Positions 1 to 49,191 of a stretch of 64,000 nucleotides of DNA are shown here, piece by piece. Source of the stretch: Coriobacteriia bacterium (GTDB lineage: Bacteria; Actinomycetota; Coriobacteriia; Coriobacteriales; UBA8131); the NCBI GenBank assembly GCA_009783085.1, contig WRHU01000001.1, positions 192,196 to 256,195 of the forward strand. The letters run 5' to 3'. The stretch's first letter is position 1. Each line of letters begins with the position of its first letter. Made by a program: the position numbers and the translations under genes. The notes under the pieces are model-generated. The model saw only the letters and a list, made by a program, of their open reading frames with translations. It made no database searches and was not told where the DNA came from.

Positions 1-1806
1 AGCGCTGCCATAGGCCCCAACGCTCGTTAAAAGTGAGGACTGGAACCACCCACGGTGCTGGTCTGAGCCTTCGAGATATAAGTCGGCGGGACGCTGGAGT
101 TGCGGGCGCTTATCAAGCACGCTGGTGTGCGACACGCCGCTTTCCCACCACACGTCTAAAATATCTTTTTCGGGGAGCAGCTCTGTTGAGCCGCAAACCT
201 CACAGGCAATGCCCTTGGGTAAATACTCACTGGGATTGCGCGTAAACCAGGCATCCGCACCCTCGGTATTAAAAAGTTCAATAACCGCATCAAAGGTTTC
301 TGCATTTGCCACGGTTGCCGAGCATTTTTCACATTTGAACACGGGAATAGGCACGCCCCACGAACGCTGGCGAGAGATGCACCAGTCGGGACGACCCTCA
401 AGCATCGACTGCATACGGTTGACTGCCCAACTTGGATACCAGGTAATTACACCCGTTTGATTGAGCGCATTATCACGCAGGTTTGTGTTTTCCATAGAAA
501 CAAACCATTGGTCGGTCGCTCTAAAAATAACGGGGTTTTGACAACGCCAACAATGCGGGTACGAATGTTCAATTTTTTGCTGAGCCAAAAGCGTTTTGCG
601 CTCACCAAGCCAGTCGATAATAACGGGATTTGCTGCCTCGACGTTAAGCCCCTCGAAGGGCCCGCCACCCGTATCAAAAACGCCGTTGTCATCAACGGGC
701 ATAAGCAGCGGAAGCTCATACTTTACGCCCATCAAGTAGTCCTCTTGACCATGCCCCGGTGCCGTGTGAACCGCACCAGTACCCGTAGAGAGCTCAACAT
801 GCTCGCCCGTTACTATTCTGCCCGTCATGTTCTCATGTATGGGGTGCTGATAGCTTGCATCAAAAAGCTCGCTGCCGTTTATGGTTATTGGTCTGCCTGT
901 GGCGTCCGAAAGTAGTTCGGGCTTTTCAAGACCTAGAGCTTCTGCCACAGTTTCTGCGAGTTCCCGTGCAATAAGGCAGGCCTTGCCGTTGACGATGAGT
1001 GCCGCATACTTGGCGTCGGGAGCAACCGTTACGCCCGTGTTGGCAGGCAGCGTCCACGGCGTAGTAGTCCAGATAAGAATATTGAGTGGCAAGCCAGCTT
1101 GCTCGGCTGCTTTATAAAAAGGAAGCTTCTGTGCCGCCTCGGCCTCAAGCGCAAAGGCAACATAAATGGACGGTGAGCTTTCCTCGCCGTATTCAATCTC
1201 AGCCTCTGCAAGGGCAGTATGACAGTGATGACACCAGTGGATTGGCTTACGCCCCCGATAGATAGCACCCGTGTCATACAGCGCTTTGAAAATCTCGACA
1301 TTGCCCGCCTCATAGGTGGGTGTGTAGGTGAGATAGGGATCGTCCCAGTCGCCCAAAACACCAAGGCGCTTAAAGCCGTCTGCCTGAATAGCAACGTACT
1401 TCTCCGCCCATTCTCTGCACAAACGGCGCAAGGTAGGCTGGTCAATTTTTGCCATTTTTTCTGGGCCTAGCGTTGTTTCAACCATGTGCTCAATGGGCTG
1501 ACCGTGACAATCCCAGCCAGGCACATACGGAGCATAAAAGCCGCGCTGCGTTTTATATTTGACAATGATGTCTTTGAGAACCTTGTTAAATGCATGCCCC
1601 ATGTGGATAGGTCCGTTTGCATAGGGAGGGCCGTCATGGAGAATGTAGGGCTCCTTGCCCTCGTTATGCTTGAGCATAAGCTGGTACAGCTCCATCTCAT
1701 TCCATTTTTTGAGGCGCAGCGGCTCATTGGTAGGCAAATTGCCCCGCATGGGAAACTCCGTTTGCGGCAGGTTCATAGTATTTTTGTAGTCCTGTGACAC
1801 GCTCAT
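1..1806 (-). CDS. ileS: isoleucyl-tRNA synthetase, N-terminal part (runs off window start)
   Basis: Reverse-strand reading from ATG at 1806 gives MSVSQDYKNTMNLPQTEFPMRGNLPTNEPLRLKKWNEMELYQLMLKHNEGKEPYILHDGPPYANGPIHMGHAFNKVLKDIIVKY..., a class I aaRS HIGH-type motif (GPIHMGHA) and IleRS N-terminus. Not in the ORF track because it has no stop inside the window. Confidence 0.95.
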   Translation of the reverse strand, partial: MSVSQDYKNTMNLPQTEFPMRGNLPTNEPLRLKKWNEMELYQLMLKHNEGKEPYILHDGPPYANGPIHMGHAFNKVLKDIIVKYKTQRGFYAPYVPGWDCHGQPIEHMVETTLGPEKMAKIDQPTLRRLCREWAEKYVAIQADGFKRLGVLGDWDDPYLTYTPTYEAGNVEIFKALYDTGAIYRGRKPIHWCHHCHTALAEAEIEYGEESSPSIYVAFALEAEAAQKLPFYKAAEQAGLPLNILIWTTTPWTLPANTGVTVAPDAKYAALIVNGKACLIARELAETVAEALGLEKPELLSDATGRPITINGSELFDASYQHPIHENMTGRIVTGEHVELSTGTGAVHTAPGHGQEDYLMGVKYELPLLMPVDDNGVFDTGGGPFEGLNVEAANPVIIDWLGERKTLLAQQKIEHSYPHCWRCQNPVIFRATDQWFVSMENTNLRDNALNQTGVITWYPSWAVNRMQSMLEGRPDWCISRQRSWGVPIPVFKCEKCSATVANAETFDAVIELFNTEGADAWFTRNPSEYLPKGIACEVCGSTELLPEKDILDVWWESGVSHTSVLDKRPQLQRPADLYLEGSDQHRGWFQSSLLTSVGAYGSA

Positions 1807-1819
1807 GTCCTTTCGGTAA

Positions 1820-1860
1820 ACATCTTTTAGCATACACCTTTTGGCACGCACAAAAGATGT
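1820..1860 (-). promoter_or_regulatory. hairpin in ileS 5' leader; TATAAT -10-like element upstream at about 1883-1888
   Basis: ACATCTTTT / AAAAGATGT 9-bp arms immediately upstream of the ileS start on the minus strand. Confidence 0.35.
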
Positions 1861-1917
1861 CTAAATGTTAGTAACCTTGACATTATAGACTAAGAGCAAA
1901 ATAAGCTGCGTGTTGTT

Positions 1918-1957
1918 TGCGAAAATGCGAAAAGGAATGCGAAAAGGAATGCGAAAA
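1918..1957. repeat. short tandem repeat (aatgcgaaaagg-type unit, about 3 copies)
   Basis: gcgaaaatgcgaaaaggaatgcgaaaaggaatgcgaaaaggg read directly. Confidence 0.75.
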
Positions 1958-2013
1958 GGGACGGTACGATTTGTCACATATTAAAATAGTGTGTGACAAA
2001 ATCGAACCGTCCC
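1958..2013. repeat. REP-like palindromic repeat, copy 1 (imperfect arms)
   Basis: GGGACGGTACGATTTGTCACA...TGTGACAAAATCGAACCGTCCC; same sequence family as 49133-49191. Confidence 0.85.
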
Positions 2014-2068
2014 CTATTGACCCACTATTGACCCACTAGAACAAATACTTTTGAGAGCGGTATCGTAC

Positions 2069-2332
2069 TCATTGCGCTAGCACCTCAAAAACATCGCGGT
2101 ACTCCTCTACAAACTCGTTTGTTGCAGAAAGCAGGGTTTTCTCTTCTAAGGTCAATTTGCGCGCTGCGTCTAAATCAACAGAAATTTCTTTTTCTTGCTT
2201 ATCTTGCGCAGGTGCTATTACCAGCCACGGTTTGCTGTTTTTGAACACCGTGATAGGTTGCTTGGTGCGAGAGACTTCCTCGCCAAGTTTTGAAAAATTG
2301 GCACGTGCCTCTGATGCGCTTACCGTTAACAT
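2069..2332 (-). CDS. Phd/YefM-family antitoxin (orphan)
   Basis: MLTVSASEARANFSKLGEEVSRTKQPITVFKNSKPWLVIAP matches the Phd/YefM N-terminal DNA-binding fold pattern. Confidence 0.75.
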   Translation of the reverse strand: MLTVSASEARANFSKLGEEVSRTKQPITVFKNSKPWLVIAPAQDKQEKEISVDLDAARKLTLEEKTLLSATNEFVEEYRDVFEVLAQ

Positions 2333-2534
2333 GGTTTGCTCCTTTTCTTTTTCTCGACAGCAATTCTACGTTTGCTCTAATTTTAGCGCCTCTATTATAG
2401 CATAAATTTAAGCGTAAATTATAACAAAGAAAACTCTTAGGTTGAGAGCTAGGGTAAGGCAAATGCACTTGGTTCTTTTGGTCATTTCGTTGATGTAAAG
2501 CGTGCCATCGCCTTTTGAAAGTGCGATAGAAAAG

Positions 2535-2556
2535 AGATGGTACGATTTTGTCACAG
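2535..2556. repeat. half-copy of the REP-like repeat
   Basis: gagatggtacgattttgtcaca matches one arm of the 49133-49191 palindrome. Confidence 0.55.
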
Positions 2557-2644
2557 ATAAGGCTTAAGGTTTGAGGGAAGTGTGGAAAATCGCGCCCCCT
2601 TTATTCATATTTAGCACCCCAAACCCCTCCCTCCAAATTGGCCC

Positions 2645-2669
2645 TTGACCCCCCCCCCCCCCGTACAAT
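2645..2669 (+). promoter_or_regulatory. putative promoter with homopolymeric C14 spacer
   Basis: TTGACC (2645-2650), C14 tract at 2649-2662, TACAAT (2664-2669), about 34 bp upstream of the ATG at 2703. Confidence 0.6.
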
Positions 2670-2702
2670 GTACTTTTTGCAGGCCTTAACGGTGGATGGT
2701 GT

Positions 2703-3071
2703 ATGCACAGGTCAGTCGATGTTAAAAGGTTTTTGCTAATACACGTGATAGTGCTTTTAGCAGCACTCCTACTGTTGTATGTCTACAGATGCCCTCTCAA
2801 CTATTTTTTTCATATACCTTGTTTGGGTTGTGGCGTAACACGTGCTCACCTCTCAGTGCTATCCCTTGATTTAGGAACAGCCTTTAAGTATCACCCTCTG
2901 TTTTTTACCGTACTGCCAACGTTGCTCTACGTTTCTCACAAGAATCTTTTAACAAAGCAGCTCAGCAACAAAGTAGAAACGGTCTACTTTTTTGTTTTGG
3001 TTTCACTTTTTTTTGTTGTGTACGTTGTCAGATTGCTGTCGAACAATCTGGCTTTTTTACAGATAAACTAG
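2703..3071 (+). CDS. DUF2752-family small membrane protein
   Basis: CPLNYFFHIPCLGCGVTRAHLSVLSLDLGTAFKYHPLFF has the CP...CGxTRA motif typical of DUF2752, plus hydrophobic helices. Confidence 0.75.
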   Translation: MHRSVDVKRFLLIHVIVLLAALLLLYVYRCPLNYFFHIPCLGCGVTRAHLSVLSLDLGTAFKYHPLFFTVLPTLLYVSHKNLLTKQLSNKVETVYFFVLVSLFFVVYVVRLLSNNLAFLQIN

Positions 3072-3089
3072 ATGGAAAGGAAGTTGAAA

Positions 3090-3674
3090 ATGGCAGAAAC
3101 GAGAATGTTTACGGTTGCACCAGATTTTGACATGAACGAGTTGGTTGGAAAAATAGCCCAAATGTATCAAGCTAAAGGATTTACTGTAGCGGCTATGCCC
3201 ATGGGCGCAGGAACCTCAATTAGTTTCAAGAAGGGAGAGGGCGGTATCCAGCAGTACATTGGCTTAGGCCTTGGGGTGCGAGCCAATATAATGCCACAAG
3301 GTGGAAACATGAGTGTCAACTTTTCTGATGCGGACTGGACGTGGAAAATTGTGGCTTTAGTAGCAGGCTGGTTTTTATGTCTTATTCCAGTTGTTACAGG
3401 TGCCATTGGTGCGATACAGCAAGCGCAGCTTCCAAAAGAAATAGGTAATGATATTCAAATGCTTGCCGGTGGCGGAAGTATGCTTGGTGGATTTGCACCT
3501 GTTGCTCCCCAACCCTATGCAGCTTATCCAGCGCCTGCGGCAGCTAACGCTGAGGCTACAAACGCTACGCAAAAGGCAGCCAAATCGGCAAAAAATGTTC
3601 CTTGTAAGGGCTGTGGTAACGACTTAAAGGCAGGATCAAAGTTTTGTCCTGACTGCGGCGCATCGCAAGACTAA
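3090..3674 (+). CDS. membrane-associated protein with C-terminal zinc ribbon
   Basis: Central TM segment and C-terminal CKGCGNDLKAGSKFCPDCG zinc ribbon. Internal ATG (MAETRM...) at 3090 is favoured over 3072. Confidence 0.65.
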   Translation: MAETRMFTVAPDFDMNELVGKIAQMYQAKGFTVAAMPMGAGTSISFKKGEGGIQQYIGLGLGVRANIMPQGGNMSVNFSDADWTWKIVALVAGWFLCLIPVVTGAIGAIQQAQLPKEIGNDIQMLAGGGSMLGGFAPVAPQPYAAYPAPAAANAEATNATQKAAKSAKNVPCKGCGNDLKAGSKFCPDCGASQD

Positions 3675-3690
3675 CTGAGTAAGGCATTCG

Positions 3691-3722
3691 CAACAGGCAA
3701 GCTGTGTACGGCTTGCCTGTTG
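3691..3722. terminator. hairpin between convergent genes
   Basis: CAACAGGCAAGC / GCTTGCCTGTTG, 12-bp perfect arms between convergent genes; no clear T-run. Confidence 0.5.
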
Positions 3723-3764
3723 TGAGGTACCAAAAAGAGCCGGTTCGATTTTAACTGGCGTCTT

Positions 3765-4400
3765 TCACCTCTCTAGCTTTTCTTGAGGCTGTAAGGCCAA
3801 GTCTTCTGTTTTGAAAGCGTATAAATCCTCGTATCGGTAGCTTGCGTCGATGCCTTTCATATACATTTCTCTATCATCGATTTTGTTAGTCAGGGCGTCT
3901 TTGAGTAAGACTTTTATTTCTATATCTCTTACCGGACTACGTTGCATTGCGAGCAAGTAATCTTCTTTATCAACCTGGCTCCAGTCAACAACTTGCCCTA
4001 GCTCATTTTTCAAAATTAAATCGAGCCATATTCTTGTACTGCGACCATTGCCCTCACAAAAGGGGTGCGCCACATTCATATTTACATATTTTTCAATAAT
4101 TTCATCAAAACTTGACTGCGGCATTTTAGAAACATACTCAAGGGAAGCGTCAAGATACATGAGCGGCGCAAACTGAAAGTTGTCTTTTGCAATGTTTTTA
4201 TTACGCTCTTTGCCGGCAAATGAATAAACTTCGTCAAACAGGTATCTATGAATACTTGCAAGTCCTTCAAAAGTTCCTATTTCAAACGTATCAAGTAGCC
4301 CTGATTCAAATAATTCAAGCGCTTTAGTTTTGCTCATTTTTTCTTCTGCACGGGCAAGCTCAGCTGAATCAGTTATGCCTAATTTGTTCTCTAAAACCAT
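3765..4400 (-). CDS. Fic-domain protein, class III-like (probable AMP-transferase)
   Basis: HPFCEGNGRSTR matches the Fic motif HPFxxGNGR; C-terminal ASYRYED resembles the NmFic inhibitory helix (SxxxE). Confidence 0.85.
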   Translation of the reverse strand: MVLENKLGITDSAELARAEEKMSKTKALELFESGLLDTFEIGTFEGLASIHRYLFDEVYSFAGKERNKNIAKDNFQFAPLMYLDASLEYVSKMPQSSFDEIIEKYVNMNVAHPFCEGNGRSTRIWLDLILKNELGQVVDWSQVDKEDYLLAMQRSPVRDIEIKVLLKDALTNKIDDREMYMKGIDASYRYEDLYAFKTEDLALQPQEKLER

Positions 4401-4713
4401 AAAACCTCACTCATTTTTTTACAGCGATATTACCTAATTATACCTCATTTACCTGCAAAAGTATTGTCTGCAGGTTCAGGAACAGGAGTTTTTCAACACT
4501 TCTTTTTGAAGTGGAAAGACAGAGAATAGGCGGGCTCGCTCTCATCATAAAGTCTGTCCTCAGACAAAAAAACCGGTTCGTACGAATACCAAAACGAGGC
4601 TTCTTTGCAGCGACTTTTTTGTTATAGTTGTTTTCTTATATATTCGCCAGCATTATGTGTTGTACGCAAGGACGTTCCAAGAACGCACGCAAGAACATAA
4701 GGTGGGCACAAAA

Positions 4714-4757
4714 TGCTGGCTTGCAAGGCAACAATGCTGGTTCGCAAGGCAACAACT
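4714..4757. repeat. about 21-bp direct repeat, 2 copies, upstream of EF-G2
   Basis: atgctggcttgcaaggcaaca / atgctggttcgcaaggcaaca. Confidence 0.7.
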
Positions 4758-4777
4758 AGGTTAAGGAGAGTGACAAC

Positions 4778-49132: not shown

Positions 49133-49191
49133 GGGGACGGTACGATTTTGTCACACCCTCTTTTAATATGTGACAAAATCGTACCGTCCCC
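49133..49191. repeat. REP-like palindromic repeat, copy 2 (perfect 23-bp arms)
   Basis: GGGGACGGTACGATTTTGTCACA-N13-TGTGACAAAATCGTACCGTCCCC. Confidence 0.93.

Follow-up and report, generated by a model that had tools for sequence, protein, structure and literature searches.

A C14 tract in the spacer of a candidate phase-variable promoter upstream of a DUF2752 operon in a Coriobacteriales genome

A run of 14 C residues lies between the two boxes of a putative promoter upstream of a DUF2752 gene in a Coriobacteriales genome, and the best explanation of this arrangement is probably a phase-variable promoter of the porA/opc kind, in which spacer length would set expression. We infer switching from the anatomy of the site and its recurrence, both seen in one assembly, and from precedent. 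In the window (the whole 64-kb stretch of DNA that was analysed), a -35-like hexamer, TTGACC (2645..2650, plus strand; 5/6 match to TTGACA), shares its final two bases with the C14 homopolymer (2649..2662, plus strand), so that the remaining C residues and G2663 form a net spacer of 13 nt (2651-2663) before a -10-like hexamer, TACAAT (2664..2669, plus strand; 5/6 match to TATAAT). The ATG of the DUF2752 gene, at 2703, is 33 nt 3' of the -10. A preliminary description of this DNA had given both hexamers, the tract, the start codon and the 13-nt spacer, and all are exact in the sequence.

The homopolymer is long enough for instability and longer than chance would be expected to leave: it is the sole C/G run of at least 9 in the window, the C/G run count there is six overlapping matches against a shuffle mean of 0.17 (no shuffle reached 6), and composition predicts about 0.003-0.014 runs of at least 14 per whole genome. 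No start-codon ORF of at least 50 aa spans the run, and a plain coding frameshift switch at C14 was therefore rejected. A promoter scan at the locus returned no match with 16-18 nt spacing.

Replication slippage would gain or lose C residues in the tract, each change moving the boxes by one base; the spacer is one nt shorter than the tract. The assembled C14 state (13 nt) is predicted to be nearly off and C17-C19 (16-18 nt) to be on, so that a population would be a mix of cells differing in their levels of the DUF2752 and zinc-ribbon membrane proteins. Low basal expression at C14 could be allowed by a weak alternative -10, TGTACT (2669..2674, plus strand; 4/6 match), which is 18 nt from TTGACC at the assembled length. 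All analysed Coriobacteriia are reported to be without both NucS and MutS-MutL (Castaneda-Garcia et al. 2017, PMC5290159), and on this class-level statement slippage should be frequent and uncorrected.

The arrangement recurs elsewhere in the host genome, a Coriobacteriales draft of 1.58 Mb in 19 contigs. The pattern TTGAC-C8+-TANAAT has two sites there, the C14 locus and a companion promoter, TTGACC-C11-TACAAT, at contig C1:48328-48358. The companion has a spacer of 19 nt and would work in the opposite direction, the loss of two C residues bringing it to 17. It precedes an inserted cassette for a secreted-looking protein (139 aa) and a VanZ-like protein (526 aa), which separates pyrE from an mIHF-like gene. 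The latter two genes adjoin in most family genomes having both on one contig, and 107 bp of the pyrE 3' end are duplicated exactly at the flanks of the insertion. The two promoters are alike in the core only and share nothing else, and are therefore not copies of each other. The genome's native mIHF promoter reads TTGTCA-17 nt-TACAAT and so speaks for TACAAT at a 17-nt distance being the normal pattern in this organism.

The present 13-nt spacer also fits a less probable account, in which the promoter is ordinary or dead and the poly-C grew neutrally by slippage in a recently acquired promoter, with no selected switching. By the usual rule the assembled spacer is inactive, and the boxes may be fortuitous; both promoters lie within inserted DNA that may be weakly constrained, and the reported absence of both repair systems would favor tract growth. 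Neutral expansion, however, should reach C-runs everywhere, and only four C/G runs of at least 9 are internal to contigs in the 1.58 Mb, two of them placed between TTGAC and TACAAT; both boxes of the C14 promoter, moreover, still match consensus at 5/6. We consider neutral growth unlikely on this balance. Poly-G/poly-C low-complexity ends of contigs C3, C5, C6, C9 and C19 were dropped as probable assembly junk, and the runs at C2:106 and C18:9122, also at contig ends, were omitted from the internal count. One of the remaining two internal tracts is a C9 in the intergenic stretch of a divergent murE-like/murC-like gene pair (named from sequence, not from a profile search). The other is a G10 on the coding strand within an MBOAT O-acyltransferase gene (C5:54841-54850), in frame in the assembly and a candidate translational phase switch.

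With local TTGA and TANAAT frequencies, the chance of at least two spacer-placed tracts is ~3e-8 if 4 tracts are considered and ~4e-7 if 13 are. This test was framed after the first promoter had been seen, and the independent support is therefore the second promoter, whose shared design makes a chance origin unlikely. A looser form of the pattern occurs in 6 of the order's 399 genomes (7 sites in total; 2 matches for a reversed control), and the host genome is the only one of the 399 with two matches. Across 85,488 species genomes the strict pattern was found in 40 stretches, whose spacers are enriched at 16-20 nt (23/40, versus 12.5 expected; P 5e-4), and many of these stretches, as read by eye, precede lipoprotein- or signal-peptide-like starts. 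The TTGAC-Cn-TANAAT arrangement thus appears to be rare and, when present, looks like real promoters. Among all exact TTGAC-TANAAT pairs of the host genome there was no general or clear spacer peak, and these pairs were therefore not counted among the main evidence; only the TTGACA subset leans to spacers of 17-18 nt (5/13, P 0.05).

Synteny places the C14 promoter in an inserted region (1804..4777) between ileS and an EF-G-like gene. In most of the family genomes examined, including that of a member of the same genus, these two genes stand side by side in divergent orientation; the distance between them is 131-275 nt in the five genomes measured (the same-genus genome and four of the family). 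In the window they are parted by 2.97 kb carrying a Phd/YefM antitoxin gene (2069-2332, minus strand), the DUF2752 and zinc-ribbon genes, and a Fic protein adenylyltransferase gene (3765-4400, minus strand; NCBIfam NF046029 above cut-off, PADLOC candidate PDC-S04). DUF2752 is present in 35/301 genomes of the order, and the window genome is the only one of its family among them. Because ileS and the EF-G-like gene adjoin in relatives and this genome is alone in its family in having DUF2752, the cassette was most likely acquired, and the synteny bears out the earlier suggestion of an accessory island. A dispersed palindromic repeat, GGGACGGTACGATTTTGTCACA...TGTGACAAAATCGTACCGTCCC, is found at window positions 1958-2018, 2534-2555 and 49134-49190, with one full and one half copy ahead of the DUF2752 promoter within the island. 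Folding of the 1945-2040 copy gives -37 kcal/mol (z -8), and the repeat resembles a REP- or MITE-like element.

The operon downstream begins with DUF2752, a small membrane protein of 122 aa (2703..3071, plus strand; Pfam PF10825, E 2.4e-15). The second gene (3072..3674, plus strand; 200 aa as listed) encodes a membrane-segment protein with a C-terminal zinc ribbon, a name that draws on weak Pfam matches below cut-off. The two genes match those of the preliminary description; they are directly adjacent and probably constitute an operon. The start of the zinc-ribbon gene is more likely ATG 3090 than the listed 3072, given a ribosome-site-like stretch, AAGGAAG. Distant relatives of its product (32-34% identity) occur in two genomes (G036 and G040). 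In a Defluviitaleaceae MAG (L047 6719-7107, minus strand), the gene of a membrane protein with a zinc ribbon follows a TTGAC-C10 promoter with a spacer of 16, which echoes the window operon in a different phylum.

Homologous loci were sought by DNA in 40 relatives' genomes and none was found; likewise, no DNA relatives of the region were found in plasmids and no strain variants of the locus in viral contigs. None of the 29 other DUF2752 loci of the order carries a C/G run of at least 8, and the switch, if it is one, therefore belongs to the cassette and not to the DUF2752 family. The earlier proposal of a spacer-switched promoter is strengthened by the second, non-homologous promoter, the rarity of the pattern, the position at the head of a cassette and the reported repair lack; its tie to DUF2752 as such is not supported.

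The tract could instead act by means other than spacing, as a G-quadruplex on the template strand, through a repressor or, at C numbers divisible by 3, through a translational fusion that starts at TTG 2638. The minus strand at C14 holds the window's only G3+N1-7 motif, so the G-quadruplex potential proposed earlier is formally right, and nothing suggests a need for it; a G-quadruplex would not account for the placement of both tracts between the same pair of boxes. A perfect 11-bp palindrome, GTACAATGTAC (2663-2673), contains the TACAAT -10 and could bind a repressor, but none is present at the companion promoter. Between 2649 and 2703 the frame stays open, as part of a 140-aa open frame, and would permit the fusion; TTG 2638, however, has no ribosome-binding site, and the bases that precede it are C-rich. 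Taken as a group, these non-spacing mechanisms seem improbable.

It is very improbable, finally, that the draft is simply wrong about the length of the tract or about its existence. Homopolymer length is misjudged in short-read assemblies, and the junk at several contig ends suggests that the assembler struggled with such sequence. Both C14 and C11, however, lie in the interior of a 257-kb contig and have normal sequence on either side. The existence of the long C-run is secure; the exact number of C residues is not.

The best-known homopolymer-switched promoters are those of Neisseria and other Gram-negative pathogens, and the porA tract is G on the coding strand, versus C at the window promoter. 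In Neisseria meningitidis opc (opcA), the number of C residues sets transcription, which in one strain was low with C11 and high with C12 (PMC3447861). The window locus resembles opc in having a C-run in the promoter region, but differs in the recognisable -35 TTGACC that flanks the run, in phylum, in its target (a small membrane-protein operon) and in that its switching is a prediction. According to the account of van der Ende (1995) cited in PMC5084427, a repeat tract between the -35 and -10 of N. meningitidis porA sets the box distance. On that account the two share a repeat tract that serves as promoter spacer; host and target differ, and for the window promoter the effect on expression is a prediction. 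An actinobacterial parallel in position is HPT_37 of Propionibacterium (Cutibacterium) acnes, where C5 or C7 lies between -10 and -35 in different strains and expression differs (PMC4746626). That run, however, is short (5 or 7 C), its variation is slow and clade-linked rather than high-frequency switching, and the gene is another one.

Promoter targets are a DUF2752 membrane protein at the window locus and secreted-looking and VanZ-like proteins at the companion. More tentatively than for the C14 promoter itself, we suggest that repair-deficient Coriobacteriales could use a small poly-C/poly-G contingency set, made up of two independently acquired envelope cassettes with TTGAC-Cn-TACAAT switch promoters and the G10 MBOAT switch, and possibly the first described phasome of the class. 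The literature library that was searched contains no paper on DUF2752 membrane proteins, and a spacer-switched promoter here, if real, would be a first regulatory clue for these proteins. As a case in a Coriobacteriales genome it would also extend contingency regulation to a class reported to be without both mismatch-repair pathways, and would offer a natural setting in which to ask how cells keep switch tracts when slippage goes unrepaired.
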